A stretch of DNA of 32,877 bases from a virus: the IMG/VR virus record IMGVR_UViG_3300047157_000101, positions 1 to 32,877 of that record; one strand, given 5' to 3'. This document shows positions 1 to 32,877 of the stretch, piece by piece (within the stretch, counting starts at the first letter, position 1; each line of letters begins with the position of its first letter). The position numbers and the translations under genes are program-made. Below the pieces are notes generated by a model. That model made no database searches. It saw nothing but the letters and a program-made list of their open reading frames with translations, and was not told the origin of the DNA.

Positions 1-976
1 TAATAGTCGCTGTAGGTGATCTGTATTCTCCACCATACAATTTAAATTTTCCACCGGAATATACTAAGTTTCCAGCAAGTGAAGAAAGTATAGTTTCTAT
101 ATTATCTTGAAAAGAACTAGCTGTATCTAATACACCGTTACAGGTATATCTTTTTTGAGTTGAACCATCATCTAATGTGACTAACTCATCACATAAATTA
201 GCAGCTGAACTAAATGTTGTATCATCTATTCTTGCTGTTGAAACACCTAATCCATATTGTGTATTAGTTAGATAATCTCTTAAAGCTAAAGCTGGATTAT
301 CACTCCATGCTGTAGTGTTGTTTCTAGGATCAAAAACTTTAGCTCCTTTAACTTTTACAGTTAAATTTGGAATACCATTTACATAAATTTCCTGATTGTA
401 GCCAAGAATCATAGGCACACACGCTATTCCTTTAAAAGTATCTGATGCTGTTAAATCAGTATAGGTAACAAAATTACTGTTTTGTGTTTGTCCTGTTTGT
501 CCTCTCATAGATGAATCTATATTAGCGTATCTATCACTAGAAGATGGATTTGGATTATATCTTGATGGAGCGTCTACTTGTCCATTAACTATAGTTAATT
601 CTTCACCATCAAAATAAAATTTTTCAAATTCTTCTACTTCGTGTCCAGCTATACCTAGCAAAATATAAAGATTACCTCTATCTATATTTCCAGCTATTTG
701 ACTTTCAGAAATATATAAGATTGTGCCACCCATTACAGCACTTCCATATACTATTTTTCTACTTTGAATAGGACTTCTAATAGTATCAGTTCTACCCATC
801 ATAGTGGCCATTTTAGGCATCATAGCTTGAGCTGCAAAGAATAAAGGTACACCAGTAATTATTGTTGTAGCTGACCAAACTACAGCGTTATAAATTGCCG
901 TTCCTTTTGTTAAACCAAGAGCAGTACCAGCTATCCATTTAGCTGCGTCTGCTATAGCTAATCCAATCGCTTCCAT
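1..976 (-). CDS. Tail tip / host-specificity protein J, N-terminal 325 codons (continues across the window ends)
   Basis: This is the N-terminal part of a gpJ-like central tail-tip protein, the baseplate subunit that contacts the host and closes the tail tube. Start is ATG at 976, preceded by AAGGA six bases upstream and one base after the stop of the NlpC-like gene. The N-terminus holds a short hydrophobic stretch (about residues 25-50), followed by the conserved J-type fold with motifs such as YGSAVMGG and GEEFEKFYFDGE-like text. The frame has no stop before base 1, where one base of a codon is left over. Joining it to base 32877 gives a Thr codon and then ITEDDIVG, which is the usual continuation in this family (…TITEDDLVG…). 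Together with 32183-32877 this makes a 556-residue protein. The family call is confident; the length is short for J because the C-terminal part is encoded separately (30660-31625). Confidence 0.88.
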   Translation of the reverse strand, partial: MEAIGLAIADAAKWIAGTALGLTKGTAIYNAVVWSATTIITGVPLFFAAQAMMPKMATMMGRTDTIRSPIQSRKIVYGSAVMGGTILYISESQIAGNIDRGNLYILLGIAGHEVEEFEKFYFDGEELTIVNGQVDAPSRYNPNPSSSDRYANIDSSMRGQTGQTQNSNFVTYTDLTASDTFKGIACVPMILGYNQEIYVNGIPNLTVKVKGAKVFDPRNNTTAWSDNPALALRDYLTNTQYGLGVSTARIDDTTFSSAANLCDELVTLDDGSTQKRYTCNGVLDTASSFQDNIETILSSLAGNLVYSGGKFKLYGGEYRSPTATI

Positions 977-3496: not shown

Positions 3497-5131
3497 TTAT
3501 CTCCTCAGTTGTGCGTCTTGAACAGCACCTTTAGATACTTGTGCAATAGCTGGTAATAATTGTAAAACTTCACTTCTTACACTAGCTTGAATACCGGTAG
3601 CAAAATTAATGTTTTGTTCAATGGTAATACCACCACCTGATCCTAATTTATTATTAGGAATAATAGCACCATTTGTTGATGGCACAAATAATTCAGGTTG
3701 TCCATTTTCTCCCACCATATAAGGTCTACCACCAACTACATTTCGGCCTACTACACCACCTGCCGGCTTAGTAAATCCTAATCCATCTAAAAAACCACCA
3801 AATGCACCTGTAATTGGTGCCATTATAGCCCTAGCTACAAACATTTTTACTATTTGAGCTAAAATAATTTTACCTAAATCTCTAAAAGCATCACCAGCGT
3901 TTTTAGTTCCCATTATTATATCTTCAAATGCTTTACCCATAGATGTAGATATAGTTACAGCTAAAGTATCAAATTGATCTGTCATATTTAAAGAGTCTTT
4001 TCTAAGTTTACTTAATTTAAGAAAAGTTTGTTGCCATCCTCTATTTTTTTCTTCTTGACTTCGTTGCCAAGCCTTCATGTGTTCGTCTTGTTGATTTGCT
4101 TCTTGTTCTCTATCAAGTTTTCTTTGTGCTTTGTAATCTAATAACGATTGTAGTTGTTTATTACTAAAATTATTCATAGAAACTAACATTTTATCAATGG
4201 TTTTTTCAAATTCATCAACGTCAAATAAATCAGTAGTACCAAAGGTAAACACTTTAACCATTTTTCTAAAAGCTAATGCTAATTTTCTAAAGACTAAAAC
4301 AAAATTAATTGAAAATGTTGTTAATGCAATAGTTATATCTAATAATAAATCATATAATCCATTAAAAAAATCATCCATTCCACCATCTTTTATAAAATCC
4401 TTCATAAAATTAGTTAAAGAATCCGTTATTTTTTGCATTGCAGGTGCTAATTCAGCTGTTAAACTGTTTGCTATACCTCTTAACGTAAACTTAAAACTTG
4501 ATAAACTATCGTTAAAATCTTCTATACCTTTAGCTGATGCTGAACTTAGTGCAATTCCTAATTTTAATGCTTCTTCCTGCATTTTTGATAGACCATCACC
4601 ACCAAGATCAAGCATATTGACCATAACCATACCAGCTCTACCAAACAACTGACTTGCTACACCTAATTTTTCAGATTGTGTACTTAAATCAGATATTCTA
4701 TCAGATATTAGTTTTATCTGTTCGTCAAAACTCATAGTCATTAAAGTCTTAGCTTCAAGATTTAATCTATCTAATCCGTAAACAGCAGTTCCTAAATTTC
4801 TACTTGCTTCATATATATTTTTAGATAATTTTTGAAAAGCACTTTGTACTGTTTCGACACTTTCACCAGCTAAAACAGATGCTAATTCATACCCTGCTAG
4901 TTGTTGAGTAGTTAAGCCTAATCTATCTGCTAATTTTTTATTAGCATCAACTAATTTTAAACTACTTCTTATCATTAAGCCAATACCAGCTAAACCAGCA
5001 ACACCAACTAAAGCTGTTTTCATGCTAAATATAGACTTAGTTGCTGTTTTTAAACTACGTCCAAGCGTAAGAAACATACCTTTAGTTTTATCTTTACCGG
5101 TAATTGGAATCTGTACTGGTACTCTTGTCAT
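3497..5131 (-). CDS. Tail tape measure protein (lambda gpH type)
   Basis: A 544-residue protein, the largest in the tail block, directly after the G/GT chaperone. The N-terminus is basic, then a hydrophobic segment at about 39-56 (TALVGVAGLAGIGLMI); a second hydrophobic region lies near 262-290. The centre is long and helical with many Gln, Lys and Glu. The C-terminus (about 400-544) matches the lambda gpH end, with GKAFEDI, ALGF-like and MVGENGQPELFVPS motifs. Its helix length sets tail length; at the usual 0.15 nm per residue a tail of about 80 nm is expected (inference). The start overlaps the GT stop as ATGA and has AAAGGA upstream. Confidence 0.93.
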   Translation of the reverse strand: MTRVPVQIPITGKDKTKGMFLTLGRSLKTATKSIFSMKTALVGVAGLAGIGLMIRSSLKLVDANKKLADRLGLTTQQLAGYELASVLAGESVETVQSAFQKLSKNIYEASRNLGTAVYGLDRLNLEAKTLMTMSFDEQIKLISDRISDLSTQSEKLGVASQLFGRAGMVMVNMLDLGGDGLSKMQEEALKLGIALSSASAKGIEDFNDSLSSFKFTLRGIANSLTAELAPAMQKITDSLTNFMKDFIKDGGMDDFFNGLYDLLLDITIALTTFSINFVLVFRKLALAFRKMVKVFTFGTTDLFDVDEFEKTIDKMLVSMNNFSNKQLQSLLDYKAQRKLDREQEANQQDEHMKAWQRSQEEKNRGWQQTFLKLSKLRKDSLNMTDQFDTLAVTISTSMGKAFEDIIMGTKNAGDAFRDLGKIILAQIVKMFVARAIMAPITGAFGGFLDGLGFTKPAGGVVGRNVVGGRPYMVGENGQPELFVPSTNGAIIPNNKLGSGGGITIEQNINFATGIQASVRSEVLQLLPAIAQVSKGAVQDAQLRR

Positions 5132-5651
5132 TTCTTCATCCTTTTAGATTCTAATGAATAAAAAGCTATCCATTGGTAAAATTCTTCTAAAGTCATATCT
5201 TTAATGGTTTGTAATGGTAAATGTAAGCGATCCGCAAGCTGAAATTGTGCCATCAGTTGAGAATCGCTTATTATTTTTTTTCAGATGCTTCCAAGCTAAT
5301 ATCTTCAGCAAATAATTTTTCTAACATTTGTGAGGAAATGTTGGTAACAAAGTTAATATCCATTCCTAAGAACGCTTGTCTATCACCTTCATCAAATATT
5401 TTTTTGCCTTCTTCGTTTTTAGCTTTTAGCATAATTAAATCTAAGAGAGATGCAAAAGATGGAATATCACCATTCATAATTCTATTGTAAAAATCAGGAT
5501 GTTGTTTTCTTATTCTCTCATCTTCTCTAACAGTCATCTTAGTGAAATAAATGTGCAATGGTTCACCATCTACACCTAACTCAGCAACTTCAATACAGAA
5601 TTTATCTTGATCTTGTTGCAACGCTTTCATGCGATCACTAATTGATGACAT
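5128..5651 (-). CDS. Tail assembly chaperone GT (made by -1 frameshift)
   Basis: The frameshift product of the chaperone gene. Ribosomes reading the zero frame (5271-5651) reach GAA AAA AAA TAA; a -1 slip on A-AAA-AAA leads to ATA ATA AGC and 48 more residues, ending in a TGA that overlaps the tape measure start. The extension contains LADRLHLPLQTI and MTLEEFYQWIAFY, which is the typical end of T-like extensions in lambda-type phages (adrlhlp…I…mt.eEf..W.ayy). The total is 174 residues. GT binds the tape measure and recruits tube subunits during tail assembly. The slip site, the conserved extension text and the position all agree. Confidence 0.88.
5271..5651 (-). CDS. Tail assembly chaperone G (zero-frame product)
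   Basis: A 126-residue, acidic-helical protein between tube and tape measure genes, the position of lambda gpG. It reads through TKMTVREDERIRK and a helical C-terminus ending in SEKK. Its last codons form the slippery run used to make GT. It is made in excess over GT and coats the tape measure before tube assembly. No strong SD is present; the start follows the tube gene by two bases, so coupling is likely. Confidence 0.85.
   Translation of the reverse strand: MSSISDRMKALQQDQDKFCIEVAELGVDGEPLHIYFTKMTVREDERIRKQHPDFYNRIMNGDIPSFASLLDLIMLKAKNEEGKKIFDEGDRQAFLGMDINFVTNISSQMLEKLFAEDISLEASEKK
5274..5281 (-). promoter_or_regulatory. Slippery run for -1 ribosomal frameshift
   Basis: Eight A in a row on the minus strand, read GAA AAA AAA TAA in the zero frame, give a canonical A_AAA_AAA heptamer right before the stop codon. 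A stop directly after the slip site favours pausing. The -1 frame is open for 48 further codons of recognisable GT extension. Confidence 0.85.
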
Positions 5652-7269: not shown

Positions 7270-9573
7270 TTAAGCAGAAACACAGAATGAAACAGGATGT
7301 TTCACGCCAAAGTCAACTGAACTAAGAGCTATAAGTCTTAATCCACCTGAAGTAGCTAAAGCATACGGATCGGATTGAATTTCTAATCCTGCCCATGTTG
7401 CTACTATAAACTCTGAGAAGTCCCCAAGAATTATAGTGTTATTTGTTACCTGCGAACTAATTAAAACTTCTCTACCGTCTACAAAGCCGTCACGTTGAGC
7501 TACAGGAGAACCTGCACCATTTGTGGCTAGTGACTTCATGTAACCATTAAGAGCTGGAGTTGTGATCCAATAAACAGAATTTCCGTCTAATGAAGCATTG
7601 TCTGCAAAGATAGCAGATTCCATAGCAATTAGCTCGGCATAAGTAGGAGCACCAGCTACACCAAATGCAGTTGCATTAACGCCAGCAGTAAACTCAATAC
7701 CTCTAGGTGAAGCAGCTACAGCAGCAGGATTACCAGCTACAGAAGCAGCATCCCATGCAGTACCCATAGCACGTAAAAGATTATTTCTAACCATTTGTTC
7801 TACGCTAAAGCCATCAGTATTTTGTAAAAGACTTCTAGTCATATCGGTAAAGCACCCATTAGTATGTTCAGAAAGTGTAACACTATCTAAAGTCGGATCA
7901 GAAGATGCTACTGCAACGCCTTCTCCAATCCAATTACTAGTTTGAGTAGCTGTAGTTCTAGGAATAGATACATTACCTGTATTATTAGCTAGAATTGTTG
8001 GATTAGCTCTTAAAACTGTTGAAAATGGTGTTAAAGCTCCAATCATATCCTGATAACGTAAATCATTATAGACAACATTTGCACCTGAGCCAGCAGTTGA
8101 TAATGTTCTTTCTGACCATTTATTAGTTACATCTTCAGGTACAAAAAATCCTTTAGATTCTCTACCTAATTTTTGAGCGTATGCTTCAGCAGCTTCTAAT
8201 TCAAAAGCAGCATCTTCACGTGAAATTAAACCAGCTTGTGCTTTTGCAGCTCTAACTATTGAAAATGATCTTGATTCTGTTTCATTTAGACCAATTTCAT
8301 TAGTTTCTAATGGTTTATTTTCAATTTCTTGTAATAAAGCACCTCTAAAAGCGTCTAATGATAGACCTTTAGCAACAGCTTCATCCGCCATTGGTGTTTT
8401 ATTGTGTCTTGAAGCTAAAGAATAGATTTCTGATATATCTTTTTCTCTTTTTTGTACAGCTTCGGTAGATGCAACACGGATTTTTTCTTCAATGTTAACT
8501 TCTACTTTGTTTTCTTCTGTAGTTTTTTCCATAATAGTCTCCTTTGTTATGGTTTGGGGTTGTAAAGATAAAGAACGTCCAATGCCTACGGTTTGATCCG
8601 CACCCATTGATACAATACTTACTTCATGTGGAGTAAAAGCAGCTCTATAGGCTTCTTCTTCTTCATCATCATAGTAAGATTCACGCTCTAAGTTGGTTAT
8701 GGTATATCCAATACTTACTTGTGTACGGATCCCATCTAAGACATCATCAAATACTTCCCTAGCCATAGTAGATTTACCAAATCGTACTGTAGAGTAAAGC
8801 CGTCCCTGACTTTCATCTAGTCTAGTATTTTCTATAACACCTATTTGTTGTCGGCTATCATGGTCAAGCAATAATGGTGCTTTATTATTTAGCCTATTAA
8901 GATCAACGTCACCTGTTCTATGTGAAAGAATTTCCAATCCAAATTCACGCATAACAGGAGATTCAGAAGATACAGACATTGTTATAGTTCTGTTTTCTAC
9001 TTCGTCCCTCTCAAATTCCATAGGAAAAGCTGCTCTATGTTCTACAGTCTTTTCCTCTTTAGTTTCAATTCTAGATTCCTCTAAAACTTCACTATTCTCA
9101 ATAGTTATTTCTTCTGTTTCTTCTTCTGTAACTTCCTCTGTTTCTTCTTCTTCATAAGAATCAGCTTTTAGAAATTTTACAGTATAAGAGTCATCAGTTT
9201 CAATAACTTCCTCAATATGTCTTTTAACTTCTTTATTTTTAGTCATTGACTTCTCCTTCTTCATTTTTTCAACAAGTTTTCGTGACCAGCTAAAGCCTGC
9301 GTCTCCACCCCATAACGCCCAAGCTATTCTGCCGTTAGATGGATAACCTTCTTCACCTTGCTTAAATCCTTCAGCTTTTTTGACACCTTCTTGCCTACTA
9401 AAAAAACTAAACATTCTTTTAACTGTATCATCAGATAGATTTTCACCAGCAATAATTTGTCTAGCCCTAACAGCACCAACTCTAGTACCACCTCTACCAA
9501 ATTCTTCACGCCAAGCAATGCCCTTACGAGCTTCATCTTTCATGCCTGCGTTTGGATAATTACTAACTGGCAT
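7270..9573 (-). CDS. Prohead protease – scaffold – major capsid protein in one frame
   Basis: A 767-residue open frame that joins three parts. Residues about 5-105 form a conserved phage domain (GIAWREEFGRGG, ARQIIAGENL, YPSNGRIAWALWGGD). Then an acidic linker (about 138-180) leads to an S78-type (HK97) prohead protease with LLLDHDSRQQIG (His238), a GIRTQVSIGY block (Ser287) and PHEVSIVSMG. The C-terminal 420 residues hold a helical scaffold segment and the HK97-fold capsid (GFFVPEDV, WIGEGVAVASSDPT, PRGIEF). Two in-frame ATG codons inside (9246 and 8532) have excellent ribosome sites, so protease and capsid are probably also made as separate chains. I set the start at 9573 (GAGG upstream, overlaps the portal stop); upstream codons to 9639 lie in portal coding. 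Confidence 0.9.
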   Translation of the reverse strand: MPVSNYPNAGMKDEARKGIAWREEFGRGGTRVGAVRARQIIAGENLSDDTVKRMFSFFSRQEGVKKAEGFKQGEEGYPSNGRIAWALWGGDAGFSWSRKLVEKMKKEKSMTKNKEVKRHIEEVIETDDSYTVKFLKADSYEEEETEEVTEEETEEITIENSEVLEESRIETKEEKTVEHRAAFPMEFERDEVENRTITMSVSSESPVMREFGLEILSHRTGDVDLNRLNNKAPLLLDHDSRQQIGVIENTRLDESQGRLYSTVRFGKSTMAREVFDDVLDGIRTQVSIGYTITNLERESYYDDEEEEAYRAAFTPHEVSIVSMGADQTVGIGRSLSLQPQTITKETIMEKTTEENKVEVNIEEKIRVASTEAVQKREKDISEIYSLASRHNKTPMADEAVAKGLSLDAFRGALLQEIENKPLETNEIGLNETESRSFSIVRAAKAQAGLISREDAAFELEAAEAYAQKLGRESKGFFVPEDVTNKWSERTLSTAGSGANVVYNDLRYQDMIGALTPFSTVLRANPTILANNTGNVSIPRTTATQTSNWIGEGVAVASSDPTLDSVTLSEHTNGCFTDMTRSLLQNTDGFSVEQMVRNNLLRAMGTAWDAASVAGNPAAVAASPRGIEFTAGVNATAFGVAGAPTYAELIAMESAIFADNASLDGNSVYWITTPALNGYMKSLATNGAGSPVAQRDGFVDGREVLISSQVTNNTIILGDFSEFIVATWAGLEIQSDPYALATSGGLRLIALSSVDFGVKHPVSFCVSA
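8530..8545 (-). promoter_or_regulatory. Internal ribosome site for a separate scaffold-capsid chain
   Basis: AAAGGAG (8539-8545) lies six bases before an in-frame ATG at 8532. Translation from here gives a 420-residue chain: about 100 residues of scaffold-like helix, then the HK97-type capsid. This is one of the best ribosome sites in the late region and fits the need for hundreds of capsid copies per protease. Confidence 0.75.
9244..9258 (-). promoter_or_regulatory. Internal ribosome site for the protease part
   Basis: AAGGAG (9253-9258) lies six bases before an in-frame ATG at 9246 (MTKNKEVKR). This start would omit the N-terminal conserved domain and begin just before the acidic linker and the protease. 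It resembles the nested in-frame starts of lambda C/Nu3. Confidence 0.65.
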
Positions 9574-11056
9574 CATCCTCACCATCTTCATCAAATGGCA
9601 CACCAGTTTGAGCATTAAACTTAGTTCCATAAGGTTCATAAGCTAAATCAATTCCCATTTTAGCAGCTAAACCAGCTTGTGCGTCTAATTCTGAGAAATG
9701 TTGACTTAATTCTTTACCGCTTTGATTTAAAACATCCTGTATTGTAGATAGTCCATTTGTTAAGTTAAGCTGATTAGCTTGTGCTTCTTTTAATGGATCA
9801 ACAGAATGATAACCTCTAGCAGAAAATTCTATTGGATTAGCCCACTTTTCATAACGAGTCATGGGTAAAGGTAAAGTACCTGATATAATAGCCATTTCTA
9901 ACCATTTTTTATAAACTGGTTTACAGAAATGCTCTATAATAAAAGATTGAGAGTGTTTATAGCTGTCTCTCTCGTCCAATAGGCCTACTCTAGCACTACT
10001 ATAACTAGTCTGCGTCAAGTCATTGGAAAGTGACGCATAAGAGACTCCTAGTCCACTAGCTATTGTTCTAAGCATTGCTTTATCAAATTCACCTACACCA
10101 GTATTAGGATGATTCCAATTAGCAAATTCAATATCAGTACCTTGTGGTAAAATATCTATAGTTGCAGGTTCAAAATTCATTGCCGGCATTGTAGCAGCTT
10201 CACCATCTAGATACGCTTCAGTAGTCATTGAATCACCTGCTGGTGTTTTAATAAAAGCCATTTTAGATGCGGCAGCTTTACTAGCTACTAGTTCTGATAG
10301 TCTAAAATCTTGTAACCATTTGATGGCAGTCATTGTAGATGCTAATTTTTTTGGATAACCTCTAGTTTGTCCAAATCTATCAGGACTATAAAGGTGTAAC
10401 ATTTCAGAAGCATCAATTCTATCTTCTTTAGATGGATTACTATAGTTTGCTACAACTGTAGAACTATAAGGATCACGATTTATCCAATACGCTAATGGTT
10501 TTTGAGTGTATTTATCTATTTCTACACCCATTTTAATACATCTACCATTACCTAATTCTTTATTAAGTGTAGAATCAAGATAATCAGGTTCTAAAAAGCT
10601 AAGTTTTAATCCTTCTTTAGTATTTATATAATGACATAATACCTCGCCATCTCTAGCTAAACCTTCTACAATCATATTGTAAATATCAGGCATTGTATAA
10701 GTGTTACTAACTTCAGGACTTTGACACCATTGATACCAACTTCTTTCAATCAAATCATTATCAAAATCATCTAAAGTACCATCATCATTTCTACTATGGA
10801 CTTGAATTTTAAATCCTTGTCCATTTCCTATAGTACCTTGTTTAATTAATTGAAAGTATCTTTGAACAATAGGATTATTTCTAGCTAAGTCTCTACATCT
10901 ATCTCTTAAAATCTTTAGGTTGTTTTCAAGTTCTGCATCAGGACTAGAGCTAGTTGCTTTCCAATCATTAAATAATCTTCCAGCGTTTGCGCCAGTAAAG
11001 TTTCTTTTACCAGTTTTTTTATTCTTTTTTCTTCTAAATCTATCTAAAAAAGCCAT
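9563..11056 (-). CDS. Portal protein (lambda gpB family)
   Basis: A 497-residue portal of the lambda type, the ring at the unique capsid vertex through which DNA enters and leaves. The N-terminus is basic (RFRRKKNKK), then GRLFNDW and LRDRCRDLARNNPIVQRY, the usual beginning; then WCQSPEVSNTYTM, DGEVLCHYI, FLEPDYLD, HLYSPDRFGQTRGYP, and DLTQTSYSSARVGLLDERD near residue 350, all in family order. The length is typical. AAGGA lies six bases before the ATG. The C-terminus ends in acidic PFDEDGEDDAS and overlaps the start of the protease-capsid frame. Confidence 0.94.
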   Translation of the reverse strand: MAFLDRFRRKKNKKTGKRNFTGANAGRLFNDWKATSSSPDAELENNLKILRDRCRDLARNNPIVQRYFQLIKQGTIGNGQGFKIQVHSRNDDGTLDDFDNDLIERSWYQWCQSPEVSNTYTMPDIYNMIVEGLARDGEVLCHYINTKEGLKLSFLEPDYLDSTLNKELGNGRCIKMGVEIDKYTQKPLAYWINRDPYSSTVVANYSNPSKEDRIDASEMLHLYSPDRFGQTRGYPKKLASTMTAIKWLQDFRLSELVASKAAASKMAFIKTPAGDSMTTEAYLDGEAATMPAMNFEPATIDILPQGTDIEFANWNHPNTGVGEFDKAMLRTIASGLGVSYASLSNDLTQTSYSSARVGLLDERDSYKHSQSFIIEHFCKPVYKKWLEMAIISGTLPLPMTRYEKWANPIEFSARGYHSVDPLKEAQANQLNLTNGLSTIQDVLNQSGKELSQHFSELDAQAGLAAKMGIDLAYEPYGTKFNAQTGVPFDEDGEDDAS

Positions 11057-13867: not shown

Positions 13868-16800
13868 TTATGATTTAATTAAAATTTTAGTTGATGAAAG
13901 TGCAGTTCCACCTAAAACAGATGGTGTTCCTGCTGTAGTCGACAAAGTACCATCAGTCTGAACGTAGTATTGTGAAGCTGTTGTTAAGCCTGTTTGGTTT
14001 TCATCACTTTGTGATATTACTTTTACTTTTACATCTTCATTATCTGCAACAGTATCTTGAGCAAAGCCAATAAAATTTGTAGCACCAAGATTAAATGTAG
14101 TTATAGAACCTTCAGGAATAATTGCTAATCCTTGTAAATCATGCGCACCATTTTCTTCATATACTGCCAAAGTAGTATAATCACTAGGTTGGTATGCAAA
14201 ACTCACACTATTATTTGAACCAACATCTGTTGAATTATAAGTATTGCTATTAGTTAAAGTAAAACTAGTACCACTAATTGTAGCAACACCACCTTTTAAA
14301 TAATATGGTGAAGCCTGACCTCTATGTGCGTAAGATATACCACCACCATCAGTACCCTGACATCCAAAAAGGTTATCATTACTATCTGTTGAAATAACTG
14401 CTTTAGTACCATGTGTAACTGAAGTACCTGATACAGTTGCTACTATACCATAAAGGTCATTACTGTTTTGGTCATCAGCAAATAAACATAAATGTTTTTT
14501 TGTTTTTGGATCATACGTCATGCCATCAGCACTAATTCTACTTTTATAACTATTAAAAGTGAGATCAGTATTCCAACTAACAGTATTATAATTATCAGTA
14601 ATATTTATAGTATTAAATACACCTTTATTATTATCACTTCCATATGCAACTATCCCAATTTGTGCTTCTTCATCATAACTACTGCTAAAATAATAACAAT
14701 CCGTTTCATTGCTTGGATTTACTACAAAATTTCCTGCTGGTAGATTTGTTCCATCAACATATACTGCACCAACTTGAGCTTTATAATTATCATAAACAAA
14801 ACTTGTTACAATAACAACAGCACCTACTTTACTATCATAATAACAAGAACCTCTATTATTAGTGTTTCCACTATATATTACATTTGCTGTGCCTTCTGTA
14901 GTAGAGCCATCACTAGCTAAAGTAATACATCTAGCAACAAGATAACTACTACTATTTTTATAAATTACAACATGCTTGCTATTACCTACATAACAACTAT
15001 CTAATATTGTTGTTGTGTTTGTGTTAAAGGCACTTCCTGAAACAATATTGCTAATTGTATTATTGCTAACAGTAAATGATTTAGAGTAACCATAATTTGA
15101 CGCATCTTGGTCTCTGTAAACTGCTAAAAAACGATTTTGAACAGTATCATAAGATACGCTGTGCATATCTAACCATCCTGCTGATATTTCTTCTTCAGAA
15201 CCATTAGAATATGCAATAGTTGTAATATTAGCTTTTACTTCTTCAAAATCACCATCCGTTCTTAAAATAACAGGCTTACCTTTAGTAATAGAACCATTAG
15301 CCATACCAACTAATTCTGTTGGTGGCTCAGCTAACTCTAGGTCTGTTCCGCTTCTTGCAGTACCTACAAATTGTGACGCATTTACTGATATTGTTGAGCC
15401 AAAAGATAAAAGCGCACTAACACCTTCATTATTAGTTTGTCTATCAGCAATGACAACACCTTTATTTGTATCAGGATTAAATAATGATGCCTGTGGTTTT
15501 GTTCTATCTGTAGTTGTATTACCTATAGTGTTTGTTGAATCTGTCCAACTTGGAGTTGTTCCTGATATTGTTATAACACCAATTTTACCATAATATTCAG
15601 AAGCACTACTGTCATAAAGTTGATAAGGTACAACACTTTTATTTTGTTCTGTGTCATAATAAGAAGCCATATATCTTGATTTAACACTATTCATAAGTGT
15701 TCTAGTTCCTTTTGTAAAAGTATCACTAGATGCCGTTAATACAGTTGCGTAAATATTTTGGTCAGTTGAGTCATCATCAATGTCCAAATATAACCATTTA
15801 TTATTATCAGGGTCATAATTCATACTTTGATTGCCTTCTGCAAAATTAGCATTTCCAACAGACAAATAATTAGTTGAAGCTGTTATATTTGAACCTGATA
15901 TATTAGCAGTATATATTTTATCATTTCCTGAACCTGAAACATAACTTATAGCTATAACTGTTCTATGTGTATCAGGATCATATCCATTAAACCAATGAGA
16001 ATAAGTGTTAGCTGTAACACTTAAAGTTGCACTATTGCCTACTGTTAATGTCGTTCCACTATTTGTAATAATGTATAATTTAAAATCAGTTGTATTTAAT
16101 TCTTTAGCAATAAAAACAAACTTATTTTCATTTGGATTATAACTAATTGTGCAATTTTCTCTATATAAATCACCACTAAATGGTTGTACTCTCGTTCCTA
16201 TTGTAGCCGAATTTGTACCTGTATAAGTTGCACCAAAAACATAACCTTTAGAGCTTGTTGCATACGTTCCTATAAACGCACCATTACCATAAGTTAATTG
16301 ATAACCTCTTTCATTACCACCATTTCCTGAGTACACAATAACAGGAGTACCCCACGTTATACTGCTACCTGATTCAGTTCCAATAGTTAATCTAGGATAA
16401 TAATCTGCTCCGCCTGTGCCATAATTAAGAACACCAATTTTATCATTTGTAGTATCATAAGCAATGCTTGTTTTAATGCTATTGCCTATTTGAGATGAAG
16501 CATAGGTTATAAAATCAGTAGATGATGGTGTTGTATCAGGTATTGTACTCGTTCTTTCAACAATAGTTCCATCATTTTTTGCGTAATAATCCTTACCTGC
16601 GGTCATGCCTGTTTGGTCGTTGTTAAACGAGCCTGCGCGATTTACTCCAACAGGTTCAGTTGTACTTGCTGTTGTAGATGCGATCCCAAAGTAATTGTCG
16701 TTAGTTAAATTAACATTTGTAGAAAAACCACCACTTCTTACAACTAGATCATAAGTAAAGTCTGTTGAATTAGCATACCAATATGTTAAATATCCTGTAG

Positions 16801-18376
16801 TTTTATCTGTGCTATTGTAAGCTATACCACCTGTATATTTAGAACCAAAATTAGAAGTGTGCAAAGTTGATACTGTTACTGCTGTTGAAGATGGCACAAC
16901 TTTATAAAATACATCATAAGCTGAGTTGTCATAATATTCATTAGCACTTAGGACAAATAGATAACTATTGTTTTCATTAATAAAAGCAAAAGATGGATAA
17001 TTTCTAAATGTAGCTACTTCTGTGCTTGAGTTAACTGTAATTGTTGAGTTTGAATTTATAGTACAATTACTAATATCAGTTTTCCAATTAGCAACTAGAT
17101 TACTACTATTGTCATCTACGTTTCCAATTAATAATCTGTTATTAATAGTGTCATATATTGCACCAATTTGCTTAACATATTTTGGTTGGTTTGTTCCATC
17201 TGAACCTGCTGTATTTGCTTTTATTGTTTGTTTAGCACCCCAACTAACTGACCTTGTGCTACCACCTGTGATTGTACCAACATAAGCATCAACAGATTCA
17301 GTACCTTGTCCTGTTGGATAGCTTCTAATAGATACAATTAAATTGTTATCTGGATCAAAAACTGTTTTTAAACAACTCCCAACACCATAATAACCCCAAG
17401 TAAAATTGCCAAACTTACCTGTCGTAGTATCAATAGCTGTTTCTGAACCAAGAGTAATAGTTGTTCCAGAAAGGGTAAATACTTTAGATTTTATTGAAGC
17501 ACTTGCTATTGTTTCTGTAGAGTTATAACTATAAGTTACTAATCCTGCATCTGCATTGCTGTCATAACCTAAAGAGCAATACATATAATTATAATAATTA
17601 CTTGCACTACTTACCTCTAATTCTGTACCCAAAGTAAATGTTGTTCCAGATAGTGTACCTGCTCTTATATAACCATAAGTAGGATCACCAGAATTATTAC
17701 CATAAGTAAATACTACTGTTGAACCACTTGTTAAAATACCGTCTATTGTATATGAGCCAATACTTTTTAAAGCAACAGGAGTACCAGAAGTAACAGAACC
17801 ATCTGTTGCAACAGTATAAGCAACTATCGTTGGATAACCGTTTGACGCAATATAGCCTGCAACAAATGTATTTTGTGCAGAGCAATAAAAATTAAAAGCC
17901 TGTTTTTCTGAACTACTAGAATCAACAATACCTGCTCCAGTAGTGTTGCTTATTGCTACATCTGATGATGTTGTTGTTGCAACTTGTGAAACTGTATTAT
18001 CAGCGTTTAAGATTAATGGTTTGCCTGCCGTAATACTACCACTAGCTGTATAGTCACGGTTTACGCCAATGTCACGATAGGATGATTTCTCAGCAGGATA
18101 AGTAACAAAGACTGTTGAACCTGTAGCTGATAAAGAGATAGCATTTCCTGAGTTACTACTTTCAAATATAGTATCTCTTGTAAGTGTGTTTGTGTTATAC
18201 GTTCCCTGACCTACTTCAAAATCTGTACCATTAACATCTGTAATTGTGTAATAACACTTTGTTCCATTACCTAACACACTAAACGCTTGAAAGCCTGACT
18301 CAGCTCCAGTAAGCGTTAATGTTCCAGTACCGGTGGTACTCGTCAACTCTTTAATTCTATCCAAACTTTTTAACAT
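13868..18376 (-). CDS. Giant fibre with three beta-propeller-like segments
   Basis: A 1502-residue virion fibre candidate. The N-terminus (about 1-100; DRIKELTSTTGTGTLTLTG, TRDTIFESSNSG, VFVTYPAE) is a conserved anchoring module of phage fibres. Three large segments follow (about 133-565, 612-1000, 1046-1430), each introduced by a small module of the type GSITAGKPLILNADNTVSQV, TAGKDYYAKNDGTIV or GSITKGKPVILRTDG. Inside, a motif Y-D-x-x-x-N-(K/R) recurs about every 45-60 residues (YDTTNDKIG, YNPNENKFV, YDPDNNKWL, YDTVQNRFL), as in blades of a propeller. The C-terminal cap is QYYVQTDGTLSTTAG and SSTKILIKS. It is very large for a genome of this size and lies between terminase and portal instead of the tail end. 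It may bind receptors or host surface glycans from the head or neck; that is inference. Confidence 0.75.
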   Translation of the reverse strand: MLKSLDRIKELTSTTGTGTLTLTGAESGFQAFSVLGNGTKCYYTITDVNGTDFEVGQGTYNTNTLTRDTIFESSNSGNAISLSATGSTVFVTYPAEKSSYRDIGVNRDYTASGSITAGKPLILNADNTVSQVATTTSSDVAISNTTGAGIVDSSSSEKQAFNFYCSAQNTFVAGYIASNGYPTIVAYTVATDGSVTSGTPVALKSIGSYTIDGILTSGSTVVFTYGNNSGDPTYGYIRAGTLSGTTFTLGTELEVSSASNYYNYMYCSLGYDSNADAGLVTYSYNSTETIASASIKSKVFTLSGTTITLGSETAIDTTTGKFGNFTWGYYGVGSCLKTVFDPDNNLIVSIRSYPTGQGTESVDAYVGTITGGSTRSVSWGAKQTIKANTAGSDGTNQPKYVKQIGAIYDTINNRLLIGNVDDNSSNLVANWKTDISNCTINSNSTITVNSSTEVATFRNYPSFAFINENNSYLFVLSANEYYDNSAYDVFYKVVPSSTAVTVSTLHTSNFGSKYTGGIAYNSTDKTTGYLTYWYANSTDFTYDLVVRSGGFSTNVNLTNDNYFGIASTTASTTEPVGVNRAGSFNNDQTGMTAGKDYYAKNDGTIVERTSTIPDTTPSSTDFITYASSQIGNSIKTSIAYDTTNDKIGVLNYGTGGADYYPRLTIGTESGSSITWGTPVIVYSGNGGNERGYQLTYGNGAFIGTYATSSKGYVFGATYTGTNSATIGTRVQPFSGDLYRENCTISYNPNENKFVFIAKELNTTDFKLYIITNSGTTLTVGNSATLSVTANTYSHWFNGYDPDTHRTVIAISYVSGSGNDKIYTANISGSNITASTNYLSVGNANFAEGNQSMNYDPDNNKWLYLDIDDDSTDQNIYATVLTASSDTFTKGTRTLMNSVKSRYMASYYDTEQNKSVVPYQLYDSSASEYYGKIGVITISGTTPSWTDSTNTIGNTTTDRTKPQASLFNPDTNKGVVIADRQTNNEGVSALLSFGSTISVNASQFVGTARSGTDLELAEPPTELVGMANGSITKGKPVILRTDGDFEEVKANITTIAYSNGSEEEISAGWLDMHSVSYDTVQNRFLAVYRDQDASNYGYSKSFTVSNNTISNIVSGSAFNTNTTTILDSCYVGNSKHVVIYKNSSSYLVARCITLASDGSTTEGTANVIYSGNTNNRGSCYYDSKVGAVVIVTSFVYDNYKAQVGAVYVDGTNLPAGNFVVNPSNETDCYYFSSSYDEEAQIGIVAYGSDNNKGVFNTINITDNYNTVSWNTDLTFNSYKSRISADGMTYDPKTKKHLCLFADDQNSNDLYGIVATVSGTSVTHGTKAVISTDSNDNLFGCQGTDGGGISYAHRGQASPYYLKGGVATISGTSFTLTNSNTYNSTDVGSNNSVSFAYQPSDYTTLAVYEENGAHDLQGLAIIPEGSITTFNLGATNFIGFAQDTVADNEDVKVKVISQSDENQTGLTTASQYYVQTDGTLSTTAGTPSVLGGTALSSTKILIKS

Positions 18377-25442: not shown

Positions 25443-26945
25443 TTAGATTGTGCTATTATTATCTTTTAAGATAATTAATTTTGCACCAATCTTACAAAGT
25501 CCATCATAATAATTAGTTGATAAATGATCTGATGAATAGTAATGACCAAACTCATGTATCAACAGTTCAAGTATCTCTTGTTTGTTTGTATCTAAGTCAA
25601 ACCATTTACGACCAAGAACATTAAAGAACAACTGCAAGTTCCCACGGCCATAACTTGCTAAAGCACCTGAACCGTCATGTACTGTAACTGATAAACTTCC
25701 AAAGCCTAATTGTTGATGTAAGAACTTTGCATAGTCAACTACTTCTTGCATCTTATCATCAACATTAACTTCTTCTGCTCCACCAGTAAACTCAGGTCTT
25801 GCATATTTACTAATTTGTCCTGATGGTAAAGCAAAATTAGAATACTCCTCTCTTGCTTCTCTGATTTTTACCCAAGCATCTTTTGAAAGTTGGCTACCTG
25901 ATATAACCTGTCTATCATCAGCAAATGCTTTTTTATTTGCTTCAGGATCAGACATATCATATACAACAGCATCTTCACCAAACTTGGCCTCAATAACAGA
26001 TTTAACTGCATCAGAATTAGCTTCTTTTTGCTCTAAGGCTTCTTGTGCAAAAGTTGTTTGCAATTCATCTTCAGATAAATCAGCATGAGTTTCATTTAAA
26101 ACAAATGCTTTTAACTTTTTAAGATAAGCTGGTTTAACATTATCTCTATCTTTAGATAGAGGAACTTTTTGATTAACATTTATTGTAAATGGTATATCAG
26201 TTTCAACAACTGGTATTCCTAATTCACAAATATAGTTTGTGTCTAAAGATTTAAACAATTCAATTTCAGTTAATCTTGAGGTTGGTGTAAAGTTACCTTC
26301 TTCATCAACAGTTACAGTTGGTAAAGTTTCTGTAAATACTGAGTGAGTGTTTGATCTTTTTATTAAATTATTATTAATCACAAACTCAACATTTTTTGGT
26401 GGAATTATAGTTTTTGATAAATCTAATAATTCATCAAACTCAATTTTTTTTAGTTTGATAACACCCTCAAAGATAGAACCTAATTCTGTCTTAGTTCCAG
26501 TTTTAGTTCTAGTACCATCTGATTTAAAAAGTACAGTCCCTTTTGTGCTTTTTATTTTAGCACTTTTAAACATGGCTAATGTAGATTTAGTACCATAAGA
26601 AAAACGACCTCTTTTAGATGTATCACCAGCTTTATAACTTTCATTAAAAAGTGTATAAGCATCAGCTAACTTTTTAAAACCTTCAGCACTATCATCTTCA
26701 ACTTTAATAAATGTACCTTCAGGATTCCAATCAATGATAACATTGCATTTACTAATATTTTCATCAAAAGCATTTGAAACTAACTCTTTAATAATAAAAA
26801 TTTTGTTTTTATCATTTTGATTTTTTCTTAATCCAACTTGATTAACATTAAACCATGTAGAGTTATTGCGAGAAGTTTTGTCTAGAACTTTCTTAGACTC
26901 TGCTTCACCAGTATTACTGGATTTATTTTTTGTCATATTTAACAT
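25443..26945 (-). CDS. GHKL ATPase domain fused to HExxH zincin-type peptidase motif
   Basis: A 500-residue protein expressed from its own operator-controlled promoter. The N-terminal part has the GHKL (Hsp90/MutL/MORC-type) ATP site: N-box KELVSNAFDE (53-62), VEDDSAEGF (82-90; the usual DxGxG is altered to DDSAEG), and RGRFSYGTKS (112-121). A middle region follows (about 200-350). The C-terminus carries LLIHEFGHYYSSDH: His464, Glu465, His468 and His474, the HExxHxxxxxH spacing of metzincin-like peptidases. I know GHKL proteins in phages (such as rIIA-type), but do not recall this combination with certainty. It may be an ATP-controlled protease acting against host defence; that is speculation. 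The mRNA seems leaderless. Confidence 0.85.
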   Translation of the reverse strand: MLNMTKNKSSNTGEAESKKVLDKTSRNNSTWFNVNQVGLRKNQNDKNKIFIIKELVSNAFDENISKCNVIIDWNPEGTFIKVEDDSAEGFKKLADAYTLFNESYKAGDTSKRGRFSYGTKSTLAMFKSAKIKSTKGTVLFKSDGTRTKTGTKTELGSIFEGVIKLKKIEFDELLDLSKTIIPPKNVEFVINNNLIKRSNTHSVFTETLPTVTVDEEGNFTPTSRLTEIELFKSLDTNYICELGIPVVETDIPFTINVNQKVPLSKDRDNVKPAYLKKLKAFVLNETHADLSEDELQTTFAQEALEQKEANSDAVKSVIEAKFGEDAVVYDMSDPEANKKAFADDRQVISGSQLSKDAWVKIREAREEYSNFALPSGQISKYARPEFTGGAEEVNVDDKMQEVVDYAKFLHQQLGFGSLSVTVHDGSGALASYGRGNLQLFFNVLGRKWFDLDTNKQEILELLIHEFGHYYSSDHLSTNYYDGLCKIGAKLIILKDNNSTI

Positions 26946-30457: not shown

Positions 30458-30660
30458 TACTTTTCTACCATAGTTTGTGTTTCTATATCGTATTTAAAGG
30501 TTTCAGCGTCATAAGATTGATTAGTTGATGCAAAACCAATACAACTTTTTCTAAATTCTAATAGATCGTCCATATTATCTAAATCACCATAGCCTAAATA
30601 ATACTCTAGCAATTCACCATCAGTATTATAAAAATATCCTCTTAATTTTTCAAAAGCCAT
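30457..30660 (-). CDS. Small protein after the J C-terminal gene
   Basis: A 67-residue protein starting MAFEKLRGYFYNTDGELLEY, rich in Tyr and Asp. I chose ATG 30660 because its codon overlaps the preceding stop (TAATG); a longer frame lies in J coding. Possibly a small tail or fibre cofactor, as the YFYNTDGEL style recalls phage tail-linked small proteins; family not recognised. Confidence 0.6.
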   Translation of the reverse strand: MAFEKLRGYFYNTDGELLEYYLGYGDLDNMDDLLEFRKSCIGFASTNQSYDAETFKYDIETQTMVEK

Positions 30661-31625
30661 TATCTTTTTAACTCCGTTACAGTTAATCCACTTCCACCAA
30701 ATATCCAATATTGATCAGTTGTTTCAGTTGTTTCATACAAAAATAAAGCGTATTTAGTTCCGGTAGTACCAGTAACACCAGTAGCACTATCTATAAAGCT
30801 AGTAGAATAATTACCTTGTATGCCTTCCGTAGAACTTTGACTGGTAGCATCACCACTACCTAAAAATGTACAAAAGTTACCACCATCAGTTGCTTTTTCA
30901 TAATAGGAGTTAGATGGTAGTTTTTGTAACACAATAGCATAAGCATATTTACTAGTAGCAATAGTTCTTTTTGAAGCCATTGCATTAGCATTTATTAATA
31001 AACCAGCTACTGTACTAGGAATAGTACCTAAAGTTATTTCATTACACATAAAGCCATTTAACGTAATTACAGATGAACCATTAAAATATGAAATAGAATC
31101 TTGAGTAGTGCTTTCACCAGTAACACTAGAACTTACAACAGAATTAAATACACCTGATACAGCATTTAAAGTAATATCACTTGTATTAACTGAAGCAAAT
31201 GCCGCTGTAACTTCACTTGTATATGATGAAGCAACTGCACTTGTGTTTACAGCTCTAACAGTAAAATAATATGTTTGATTTTGTGAAAAAGTTACGGAAT
31301 CGTAAACAAGATTGTATTCTTGATTAGCTGATCTAACAGCATCAATAGAACCTATAAGATTTTTAGTACCACTTGAAGATGTTGAATAATATATTTCAAC
31401 TGATTTTAAATCTTTATTACTAGGATTAGTCCAAAATAAAGTAATAGCTAATGGATCACTTGAAGCTGATAAACTTGTAGGAGTTGATGGTAGTGAAGTT
31501 GAAGCTGGAACAATTACCTGTTGAGTAGTGTTAAATGTACTGTAATTGCCTGCCATGTTTCTAGCACGAACTTTTACATCTATGGTTTTTCCACTTGTTA
31601 CCGGTGTTAATAATAATTTTGTCAT
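30660..31625 (-). CDS. Detached C-terminal part of tail tip J (half FN3, FN3, receptor end)
   Basis: A 321-residue protein. The first 27 residues (TKLLLTPVTSGKTIDVKVRA, then RNMAGNYS) are the second half of an FN3 domain; the first half is the end of J (32183-32877). Read together they form one complete FN3 unit with …FETVSVLRDV joined to TKLLLTPV…. A full second FN3 follows (about 50-145, with VEIYYSTS and YYFTVRAVNTS), then a Ser/Thr-rich end with a beta-rich tip (YALFLYETTETTDQYW). It should form the receptor-binding end of the tail tip with J. It starts in ATGA overlap with the holin gene and has only a weak SD. Confidence 0.75.
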   Translation of the reverse strand: MTKLLLTPVTSGKTIDVKVRARNMAGNYSTFNTTQQVIVPASTSLPSTPTSLSASSDPLAITLFWTNPSNKDLKSVEIYYSTSSSGTKNLIGSIDAVRSANQEYNLVYDSVTFSQNQTYYFTVRAVNTSAVASSYTSEVTAAFASVNTSDITLNAVSGVFNSVVSSSVTGESTTQDSISYFNGSSVITLNGFMCNEITLGTIPSTVAGLLINANAMASKRTIATSKYAYAIVLQKLPSNSYYEKATDGGNFCTFLGSGDATSQSSTEGIQGNYSTSFIDSATGVTGTTGTKYALFLYETTETTDQYWIFGGSGLTVTELKR

Positions 31626-32011
31626 TTTCTCGCTACACCTTTACTTTTTTCAAAACTTCTACTTGCTGATAATCCTAACATACCCATTAAAACAGGATAA
31701 AGCATTGCTAAGTCAAATTCAGGAAATTTAAAATCCAATCCAAACGCTCTTAATATTACTTCTAAGATAGGTTGTATCATTGCATGATAGGTTATAGCTA
31801 TTCCACAAGACCATCCTATAAATGGTCTCCATCCACTAACAAATAATGAACTATGTTTAGCTTCTTCTTTGTTTACGCCTATTTGTGCTAAATCTAGTTT
31901 TTGTAAACCAGCTAATAATTGATGTTGTAGAGTTATTCTTAAATCTTTATCCTCTACAAACTTATCAAGTGTTTTTGTTATAGATGGTATTAATGCTAAT
32001 AAATTCATCAT
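31622..32011 (-). CDS. Holin, 3-TM gene-transfer-agent type
   Basis: A 129-residue membrane protein. The block SSLFVSGWRPFIGWSCGIAI and YHAMIQPILEVIL is typical of the GTA_holin_3TM family of Alphaproteobacteria; hydrophobic segments lie at about 65-90 and 105-122, with an amphipathic N-terminus. Holins open the inner membrane at the end of infection. The gene lies between the XhlA-like gene and the detached J C-terminus; the stop overlaps the latter start (ATGA). No endolysin gene is adjacent. AGG upstream is a weak ribosome site. Confidence 0.82.
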   Translation of the reverse strand: MMNLLALIPSITKTLDKFVEDKDLRITLQHQLLAGLQKLDLAQIGVNKEEAKHSSLFVSGWRPFIGWSCGIAITYHAMIQPILEVILRAFGLDFKFPEFDLAMLYPVLMGMLGLSASRSFEKSKGVARK

Positions 32012-32015
32012 TTAC

Positions 32016-32183
32016 CTAAAAAAAAGATAGTTTAACTAACAGGCCAATAACTGTAGCTGTTGAGCCTATCATAAGTTGTTCAATTCTTACTAAACGTGCC
32101 TTAATATTGTCATATTTCTCTAAACATAATTTTTCGTGATCGTTTATTTTTTGATCTACTATTGCTACTGTTGGTTTAATCAT
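32016..32183 (-). CDS. XhlA-like small membrane protein
   Basis: A 55-residue protein whose ATG overlaps the J stop as TAATG. Residues 8-37 form a charged amphipathic helix (KINDHEKLCLEKYDNIKARL) and residues about 38-53 one membrane helix (MIGSTATVIGLLVKL). This layout matches haemolysin XhlA-type proteins that act with holins at the membrane. It is followed after four bases by the holin. The two together look like a lysis pair set inside the J gene. Confidence 0.65.
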   Translation of the reverse strand: MIKPTVAIVDQKINDHEKLCLEKYDNIKARLVRIEQLMIGSTATVIGLLVKLSFF

Positions 32184-32877
32184 TATACATCTCTTAATAC
32201 ACTTACTGTTTCAAAATTAGACTGAGTGCTTTCTTTAAAATATACATCATATTCAATAATATGAGGATCATTAGGATCATCCGTTATTGTAACCTCTACA
32301 GCGTCTTGAATAGTTCCATCTTCAGCTGTATTACTAACAATAGATAGTGAAGATACTGGTGTAGCTACATTCATATAATTAGTAGCAACTGGAGCAGTTG
32401 TTTGTGTATATCCAATTTCTTCAGCACTTGTCCATCCATATACTAAAGCGTCTGTTTCTTGTAACATAACAGAAACACCTAAAATATTATCTTGATTTTC
32501 TAAACTCCAACTTACAATTTCAAATGTTTTGTTTTCATATCCAAGTGAAGGTAAAGTTACATTTACCACTTGCATAGGCTCTAACGCAAATTGCTTTAAT
32601 GATAAAAGCATAGTCATGTTGACTTGCCTTCTGTTCTTTTCTAAATAAATTTTAGCTATTCGTTCACAAGCTACAGATGTATTTGTCATTGGTAATGGTA
32701 ATTCTTTTTCTAAAACTTCACCATCTTCAGCGATTGCTGTTGTAGATTTTATAGTTGCATAATCCGCTGGTACATTGTCTGTTTCATCACCCATAAAAAT
32801 ACCTTTTATAGAGTTAAATTGATCTCTACGTGAGTTTTTACTATGTATGTCTAATGTACCTACAATATCATCTTCTG
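32183..32877 (-). CDS. Tail tip / host-specificity protein J, C-terminal part (continues from base 1)
   Basis: The continuation of J from 976-1. The frame enters from the window end as the last two bases of a Thr codon and reads ITEDDIVG, then SKNSRRDQFNSIKGIF, all typical of J. Later text includes EDGEVLEKELPLPMTNTSVA, an EIVSWSLENQDN block and a linker near TAPVATNYMN, then the first half of an FN3 domain (VEVTITDDPNDPHIIEYDVY …). It stops abruptly at TAA (32185-32183) after VSVLRDV, in the middle of the FN3 fold. The rest of that FN3 is encoded at 31625 and down. Confidence 0.88.
   Translation of the reverse strand, partial: EDDIVGTLDIHSKNSRRDQFNSIKGIFMGDETDNVPADYATIKSTTAIAEDGEVLEKELPLPMTNTSVACERIAKIYLEKNRRQVNMTMLLSLKQFALEPMQVVNVTLPSLGYENKTFEIVSWSLENQDNILGVSVMLQETDALVYGWTSAEEIGYTQTTAPVATNYMNVATPVSSLSIVSNTAEDGTIQDAVEVTITDDPNDPHIIEYDVYFKESTQSNFETVSVLRDV

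Follow-up and report, generated by a model that had tools for sequence, protein, structure and literature searches.

In one viral genome, the gene for a tail hub protein of the lambda J type ends partway through an FN3 domain, and the rest of that domain begins another gene, two genes further on. Has J lost its distal part, or is the hub now made as two chains that meet within a single domain? A sequence-only reading of this DNA had noticed the split and put forward both answers. The DNA is the 32,877-nucleotide record IMGVR_UViG_3300047157_000101 from IMG/VR, called the window below. The split itself is confirmed.

Layout of the interrupted J gene

The window is circularly permuted, and the J frame crosses both of its ends. 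On the minus strand, the N chain of J runs in a single frame from 976 to 1 and on from 32877 to 32183, giving 556 aa that stop inside an FN3 domain (Table 1). The sequence-only reading gave the stop and frame correctly, but its start at 32794 does not hold, since the N chain continues across the window ends. The same 556-aa chain is one uninterrupted ORF (3773–5443) in contig L001; the J chains of this contig and of the window are 100% identical. The first part of the N chain matches phrog_5616 (tail fibre protein; positions 6–347, E 9.2e-42) and phrog_31 (central tail fibre J; E 8.4e-36). The N chain is followed by a 55-aa gene, a three-TM holin gene of family PF11351 and a 321-aa C chain, which begins with the remaining half of the FN3 cut in the N chain. 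The TAA stop of J (32185–32183) and the ATG of the small gene have base 32183 in common (TAATG), and the holin stop overlaps the C-chain ATG as ATGA at 31622–31625. The gap between the two chains, read in L001, is 557 nt and not a multiple of three. These coordinates, frames and overlaps are as first reported.

Table 1. Features of the J region, in window positions. Strands of the N half were placed via a model of an undivided relative.
Feature	Position	Strand	Basis
J N chain, first part (residues 1–325)	1..976	-	base 1 lies in the codon crossing the window ends; in frame with 32877..32183
J N chain, remainder, stop TAA at 32185–32183	32183..32877	-	phrog_5616 positions 350–570, E 3.5e-26
N half of split FN3, strands A, B, C, D, last 65 N-chain residues	32186..32380	-	undivided-FN3 profile positions 2–60 (identical in L001)
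Small protein, 55 aa	32016..32183	-	ORF; start codon uses base 32183 of the J stop
Holin, 129 aa, three-TM GTA type	31622..32011	-	PF11351 E 5e-14; phrog_3427 holin E 1.4e-26
J C chain, 321 aa	30660..31625	-	ORF; phrog_32822 virion structural protein E 1.7e-9
C half of split FN3, strands E, F, G, first 40 C-chain residues	31506..31625	-	undivided-FN3 profile positions 67–101 (identical in L001)
Second, complete FN3 of C chain, residues 43–146	31188..31499	-	AlphaFold2 model of C chain
C-terminal all-beta domain of C chain, residues 176–320	30666..31100	-	model; pLDDT ~54–88 per ten-residue block

The two genes in the gap had been described as a lysis cassette of an XhlA-like gene and a three-TM holin. 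Of this, the holin stands: the window protein scores 53.3 bits against PF11351 (GTA_holin_3TM; cut-off 24.8) and that of contig L128 scores 44.2. Five longer holins of relatives all miss this cut-off (L016 23.2, L003 16.6, L018 14, L024 and L028 no match) and match phrog_6637 instead. No endolysin was recognised. The small protein consists, by eye, of a hydrophilic stretch followed by a single hydrophobic stretch, and has no informative family match in Pfam or PHROGs. An XhlA identity found no Pfam support, either for the window protein (E ≤ 1) or for relatives (two at E ≤ 0.5, four at E ≤ 10), in searches whose HMMER filters may miss weak matches of such short proteins; the likeness to XhlA is one of layout only.

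Judged by length and homology, the inserts of related contigs likewise comprise a small protein and a holin. Homologues of the small protein, 52–63 aa long, occupy the same place on the 26 split contigs in which the gap is fully read. The gaps are 518 to 775 nt long and take all three values modulo 3; the earlier remark that the inserted length is not a multiple of three is thus true of the window but not of the group. Each C chain read in the split relatives starts at an ATG within an ATGA overlap.

Two half-domains and the undivided FN3

Undivided J proteins provide a direct comparison. In those of HTVC111P and the Roseobacter phages CRP-406, CRP-821, CRP-811 and CRP-6, the junction region is a continuous FN3, and in one-chain relatives the C-chain profile starts 3–22 residues after the end of the N-chain profile, in the same ORF (4 loci in one scan, 9 in another comparison). 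An FN3 profile was built from 37 undivided relatives only, near-copies included; these were the aligned members of 59 readable fragments, the five named phages and 17 others being left out. Against this profile, N halves match within positions 2–61 and C halves within 64–102, without overlap, in all 25 loci. By median, N halves score 26.2 bits, C halves 22.4 and the two joined 52.4, as against 24.8 with the C half shuffled and 24.7 with the order reversed. The joined score exceeds that of the better single half at every locus (25/25). The break maps to the DE loop in each case: on the model of the undivided FN3 it falls at residues 77–80, with strands at 72–76 and 80–83 on either side. The sequence-only reading had taken the two ends for one FN3 unit, to be abandoned if they did not complete each other. 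They do so at all 25 loci, and undivided relatives carry the same FN3 in one chain.

General Pfam models respond less evenly to the joined halves. The fn3 cut-off (25 bits) is passed by one of the three joins tested, that of L028, at 29.1 bits; the L016 join reaches 23.0, below the cut-off, and that of the window has no fn3 match, just FN3_DSCAM at 17.9, also below cut-off. Alone, none of the three N halves has a Pfam match, and the C halves score 20.0 at best (L028), 14.6 (L016) or not at all (window).

In the C-chain model, the C half by itself forms two short strands only (pLDDT 70–91 per block) and is not a complete FN3. The FN3 that follows aligns with solved FN3 domains over residues 43–145 at a VIA-align Z of ~12–13, and the C-terminal beta domain occurs in two exchangeable sequence types in the relatives' alignment. 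Foldseek ranks lambda gpJ in complex with LamB (8xcj_F, E 1.2e-5) first for the whole C chain; with TM-scores of 0.20–0.25 and an rmsd of 25.5 over a multi-domain chain, this is only a hint, and these structure comparisons hardly reached the C-terminal beta domain.

Recurrence, holin exchange and selection

Scans of viral contigs found the split layout on at least 27 contigs, at least 26 of them non-identical; identical J ends were counted once, and L022, dropped thereby, is the 27th. The same classification gave at least 95 non-identical relatives in which J runs on, and at least eight in which J is cut by a contig end. The counts of 26 and 95 are not a census, because two of the scans yielded the best 80 of 213 and the best 80 of 246 loci. 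An ORF was classed as undivided when it extends at least 60 residues beyond the N-chain match. Of the 95, 59 can be read through the first FN3: their match extends to position 540 or further, with at least 120 residues after it. In the remainder, all that is seen is that J runs on. Among the matches listed, a C chain, full or clipped by a contig end, is present on 26 of the 27 split contigs, and the remaining one ends 148 bases past J.

The split J proteins form one side of a single tree branch with SH-aLRT 100, in a quick tree search restricted by length filters to 24 of the 26 split rows and 60 of the 95 undivided ones. N-chain identity falls to ~41% among the 11 loci compared. The sequence-only reading would have yielded if both parts were always separate and each folded alone. 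Within the clade they are indeed always separate, because no undivided J was seen inside it among the loci listed; folding alone does not apply to the C half, for the reason given above. Split contigs come from many metagenomes, and the phage group is known from environmental DNA only; going by the closest named phages, marine alphaproteobacteria are a first guess for the hosts. An N-chain alignment scan of genome contigs for host prophage relatives gave 62 pattern matches, none confirmed. Neither the C chain (tblastn, 50,697 named phage records) nor the region's DNA matched a named phage. The split is easily missed in annotation, because the C chain has no named-phage match and its PHROGs structural match is weak.

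The half-domains and the holin between them have largely separate histories. Correlation with the N body is 0.71 for the C half (21 loci; 0.74 for 17 dereplicated loci), much lower for the holin (0.28/0.23), and 0.40/0.37 for the remainder of the C chain. For the C half, correlation with the small gene is 0.51/0.48 and with the holin 0.39/0.34, values below that for the N body yet not negligible. These figures leave out L006, L029, L030 and L153 (C chain incomplete) and L138 (C chain absent from the contig). The pairs L017/L018 and L017/L021 have swapped holins, the exchanged stretch ending abruptly at the C-chain start; holin clustering covered 22 loci and its identity table 11. Judged from these comparisons, the holin is exchanged largely independently of both halves, and the C half keeps to its N chain. 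Half-to-half correlation drops to 0.18/0.17 once the N body is controlled for. The link between the half-domains is consequently mostly common descent with the whole N chain, and residue-level co-adaptation beyond shared descent finds no support in these figures.

In close pairs, dN is low relative to dS in both halves. The median dN/dS over all usable pairs is 0.48 for the C half, against 0.34 for the N body and 0.30 for the second FN3, and in the eight closest pairs the ratio is up to ~0.4 for the C half and at most ~0.14 for the N half. Close pairs were given more weight because medians over many pairs suffer from saturation. These ratios suggest that the C half is under somewhat relaxed constraint.

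Origin of the split and its known counterparts

The locus probably reflects an old fission of a lambda-J-type hub, with chains that rejoin as a two-chain FN3 and a C chain that is the receptor-side part. In an ancestor, genes for a small membrane protein and a holin would have arrived inside the hub gene, at the DE loop of the first FN3, by insertion rather than rearrangement, and J would have been in two pieces ever since. The N chain as hub and the C chain as its receptor-side extension (half an FN3, one full FN3 and the beta domain) would be made separately from adjacent, overlapping genes, presumably by termination-reinitiation. The half-FN3s would then pair non-covalently at the tail tip, whereby the hub recovers its distal part, and the C chain would serve in receptor binding. 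Most probably, then, the virion contains one FN3 built from both half-domains. In lambda, FNIII domains help to close the tube and separate on receptor binding (PMC11101478). Given this role of hub FN3s, one speculative idea is that the joint is useful in itself: a two-chain FN3 might act as a release joint that opens under the pull of the receptor on the C chain, and it would allow receptor-side chains to be swapped between phages growing in one cell.

The other answer to the opening question is that J lost its distal part, that the C chain is a fibre or decoration protein in its own right, unpaired with J, and that the half-FN3s are relics. In its favour, constraint on the C half is weaker than on its neighbours, and in T5 a separate hub chain and central-fibre chain abut end to end between whole FN3s (PMC10038345). 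Relics should decay, yet both halves are recognisable at 25 of 25 readable loci and persist though N chains differ as widely as they do. The low dN in close pairs and the closer correlation of the C half with the N chain than with its other neighbours also argue against loss, which we consider improbable. A two-chain FN3 is favoured instead by the complementary ends, by the C chain found on nearly every split contig listed, by low dN relative to dS in both halves and by a C half kept with its N chain across swapped holins.

That the halves fit with almost no missing positions might also point to a single polypeptide, made by removing an intron, by ribosome bypass or frameshifting, or by protein splicing. 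This is very unlikely: the gap is filled by two genes and occurs in all three reading phases, and the C chains read all begin with their own ATG. No RNA family reached the gathering score in the window; at 31500–32300, Rfam returned a single sub-threshold snoRNA at E ≤ 1 and no group I or II intron match in the gap. No intein-like domain was matched in the window's two inserted proteins. Circle closure matters here, as the N chain crosses the window ends, and an assembly or contig-closing error could in principle have created a false gap. L001, however, has the whole region unbroken. Chance and assembly error are excluded because the layout recurs on at least 27 contigs from many metagenomes; error as the cause of the gap is already refuted by these contigs, and its probability is negligible.

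The proposed old fission of a lambda-J-type hub has partial counterparts. HTVC111P, CRP-406 and their relatives share the hub region and the order of the two FN3s, and in CRP-406 and CRP-821 J follows a DUF6950 gene, as it does here. Their J is one chain; here it is cut in the first FN3, with two genes in the cut. The window matches the hub profile of lambda J, but hub and FN3-fibre are not in one chain. The isolates' J aligns poorly with the C chain past the second FN3. Undivided homologues exist, and the inserted genes separate complementary parts, as expected of fission by insertion (at least 95 versus at least 26 contigs). In phage Aeh1, the two chains from the split nrdA gene work together. 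PMC2988022 describes nrdA split by mobE, and a T4 topoisomerase gene by mobA, as critical genes turned into separate coding regions, with a UAAUGA stop-start overlap between mobE and nrdA. The insert is there a homing endonuclease and here a small membrane protein with a holin; moreover, the gene broken here is a virion structural gene, cut inside a single small domain throughout a clade. Mitochondrial cox2 is another split gene (PMC5374615). T5 likewise carries its hub (pb3) and receptor-side extension, the central fibre pb4, on separate chains meeting in a row of FN3s; there the chain border lies between two whole FN3s (PMC10038345), and here within one.

That a cut FN3 can refold is known from engineering. 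A monobody with a cut loop regains its fold from two fragments, with high though reduced target affinity, and its melting temperature falls from ~78 to ~45 °C according to PMC11666773, which cites Dutta et al. 2005 in the context of split FN3s. That cut is in the CD loop and the natural one in the DE loop. The literature searched, with most subscription papers and preprints outside its reach, contained no description of a J split within an FN3.

A structural protein expected to seal the tail is inherited in two pieces, cut within a domain of ~100 residues, across a clade in which J identity falls to ~41%. A holin gene has been exchanged at a slot within a structural gene. If the chains rejoin, this would be natural fragment complementation in a virion, with the chain break placed at the gate of the tail tube.

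Layout of the divided tail-tip gene

The genome in the window is circularly permuted: the tail-tip gene J crosses the two ends and is continuous in frame over 1..976 and 32183..32877. Round the circle, the ORFs left open at the two ends join in frame into a single protein of 556 residues (the N chain), which is uninterrupted as one ORF (3773-5443) in L001, a viral contig with identical J chains. Adjacent stretches of phrog_5616 (6-347 and 350-570; length 873) are matched by the two parts of this chain, and the profile thus extends approximately 300 residues past the chain's stop. Two small genes separate the N chain from a second J protein, the C chain. The gap is 557 nt (read in L001), and the overlaps of stops and starts claimed from the sequence alone are indeed present, as TAATG and ATGA.

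Features of the window
Feature	Position	Strand	Description
J N chain, right part	32875..32183	minus	Frame open at right end of window
J N chain, left part	976..2	minus	ORF open at left end of window
Small gene	32016-32183	minus	55 aa, after J stop
Holin	31622-32011	minus	129 aa, three-TM GTA type; PF11351 5e-14, phrog_3427 1.4e-26
J C chain	30660-31625	minus	321 aa
C-terminal domain of C chain	30666-31100	minus	Two sequence types in an alignment of relatives
Tail protein	1396-2364		phrog_2048 match beyond first ~135 residues; YKCANHSGMG within them resembles, by eye, a motif of blue-copper (cupredoxin) proteins
Tape measure	3497-5131		Matches PHROGs tape-measure families named 'lytic tail protein' or 'lysozyme'
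Predicted protease-capsid fusion	7270-9639		789-aa ORF; matches prohead protease (Peptidase_S78) and major capsid protein (Phage_capsid)
ORF adjoining terminase gene	13868-18376		1502 aa; Pfam cement-protein match sub-threshold only; no PHROG match at E <= 0.001
500-aa protein	25443-26945		GHKL-type ATPase match, weak and under the cut-off (HATPase_c_3, E 0.0021); HEFGH metalloprotease-like motif close to C terminus, by eye

The same order, a protein of 52-63 residues followed by a holin-like protein of 121-151 residues, is found in the 26 split contigs whose gap could be fully read (the start codon of the holin-like protein is uncertain in one, L127). Holins from 22 loci form two BLAST groups: a GTA type, which includes that of the window, and a longer type of 142-151 residues. 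All five of the longer holins tested match phrog_6637, and four match phrog_3427 weakly. In at least 8 of 95 loci with an undivided J, homologues of either group also occur, roughly 0.8-1.8 kb downstream of it; this is a lower bound because many loci stop soon after J. Such genes can therefore be close to the distal end of J without splitting it, and the split may have arisen by insertion or by local rearrangement. The two inserted genes had been described as a lysis cassette. The holin stands and is what that label is based on: of 37 window ORFs compared with PHROGs, Pfam or both, none was identified as an endolysin, leaving aside the tape-measure families with lytic names that match 3497-5131.

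One FN3 domain encoded by two genes

The sequence-only reading also held that J is cut inside one FN3 domain, with chain ends that complete each other, and comparison with undivided relatives bears this out. When the chains are aligned to the undivided J proteins of Pelagibacter phage HTVC111P and Roseobacter phages CRP-406, CRP-821, CRP-811, and CRP-6, the break lies in the middle of one continuous FN3, and the next FN3 is in register. Among undivided viral-contig relatives, the C-chain profile starts 3-22 residues past the end of the N-chain profile, within the same ORF (four loci; nine with broader profiles). An FN3 profile was built from 37 undivided relatives only and then applied to the split loci. 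In all 25, the N half matches within profile positions 2-61 and the C half within 64-102, with no overlap. Median scores were 26.2 bits for N halves, 22.4 for C halves, and 52.4 for the two joined; the control medians were 24.8 bits with the C half shuffled and 24.7 with the order reversed. Pfam support was lower than that of the profile and varied between members: joined halves matched fn3 at 29.1 bits in L028 and 23.0 in L016 (cut-off 25), those of the window gave just a weak FN3_DSCAM match (17.9 bits), and single halves gave no match, or 20.0 bits at most.

The position of the cut was examined in an AlphaFold2 model of a fragment of an undivided relative, L068 (37 rows, mean pLDDT 87.7), which contains two FN3-like strand sets. 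Strands of the first span residues 24-34, 40-49, 56-65, 72-76, 80-83, 91-100, and 109-114, and the junction of 25/25 split loci maps to residues 77-80. The model thus places the cut in the loop that connects strand four (D) to strand five (E). Modelled alone (24 rows, mean pLDDT 77.5, pTM 0.45), the C chain has two short strands only in residues 1-41, a full FN3 at approximately 43-146, a low-confidence stretch at 147-173, and then an all-beta part.

Age of the split and exchange around it

Six viral-contig scans (two represented by their best 80 loci each) and five named phage records provided at least 205 loci, with the same contig repeated in some cases. When identical J ends are counted once, J is split in at least 26, runs on for at least 60 residues past the N-chain match in at least 95 (the first FN3 being fully readable in 59 of the 95), and is cut by the contig end in at least 8. 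The split layout occurs on at least 27 contigs, one identical contig included. The C chain is present on 26 of the 27, and on four of these it is cut short by the contig end; the sequence of the other, L138, ends 148 bases past J. A quick tree search over 84 J sequences, with long branches in some undivided rows, puts the 24 split sequences on one side of a branch (SH-aLRT 100), with one change. No undivided J was seen within the split clade among these split and running-on loci. N-chain identity among 11 split loci falls to about 41%, which indicates that the arrangement is old. Near the split J of L003 (8540-9902) and L005 (7742-9133) are ORFs that, by eye, are integrase-like (tyrosine recombinase), and these two phages may be temperate.

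Related phages have swapped holins inside the split structural gene, and the swapped stretch ends sharply where the next gene starts. L017 and L018 share 93% identity in their N and C chains and 43% in their holins, while L017 and L021 share 99% in their holins, 55% in N chains, and 51% in C chains. In 60-base steps, L017 and L018 keep an identity of 0.78-1.00 as far as the stretch that separates small gene and holin; it falls to 0.37-0.68 over the holin and returns to 0.85-0.93 once the C chain begins, with dips to 0.73 and 0.42 farther along. L017 and L021 have the opposite pattern: 0.92-0.97 in the final 360 bases of the holin and, after a fall to 0.65 where the C chain starts, 0.45-0.75.

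Rank correlations (21 loci / 17 dereplicated loci) were 0.71 / 0.74 for the C half with the body of the N chain (the N body), 0.28 / 0.23 for the holin with the N body, and 0.28 / 0.25 for the C half with the remainder of its own chain. The C half gave intermediate values, 0.51 / 0.48 with the small gene and 0.39 / 0.34 with the holin. C-chain residues 1-40 thus tend to travel with the N chain, while both flanks are swapped more freely. Correlation between the two halves was 0.63 / 0.66, and dropped to 0.18 / 0.17 with the N body held constant, so that co-inheritance is shown, but not residue-level co-adaptation. In the eight lowest-dS pairs per region, dN/dS was ~0 to 0.14 for the N half and ~0 to 0.4 for the C half; medians over all usable pairs were 0.42 and 0.48, above those of the N body (0.34) and the second FN3 (0.30). 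These ratios indicate that both half-domains are kept under selection, the C half less strictly.

Parallels and a working model

We know of no gene fission that involves a holin-block insert in a tail-tip hub gene, cut inside one small domain across a clade, and none was found in the literature searched. By terminase, the nearest named relatives are Roseobacter phages CRP-821, -822, -831, and -823 (~53% identity); a split J is unmentioned in the available part of the description of the CRP-822-type family (PMC12629253). Phage genes divided by an inserted gene include Aeh1 nrdA with mobE and the T4 topoisomerase gene with mobA (PMC2988022), and cox2 fission in wasp mitochondria is described as yielding complementary chains (PMC5374615). 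An FN3 cut in a loop has been reconstituted from two fragments, with loss of stability and affinity (PMC11666773). In T5, the hub and central fibre are reported as separate chains, joining between whole FN3 domains (PMC10038345), and the two FNIIIs of lambda gpJ are reported to help close the tube and to separate upon receptor binding (PMC11101478).

Most likely, the N and C halves work at the tail tip as an FN3 assembled from two chains. The overlaps TAATG and ATGA suggest termination-reinitiation, which would coordinate the output of the four products. The two C-terminal types of the C chain have been swapped between lineages largely independently of other J parts, as expected for a putative receptor-binding part.
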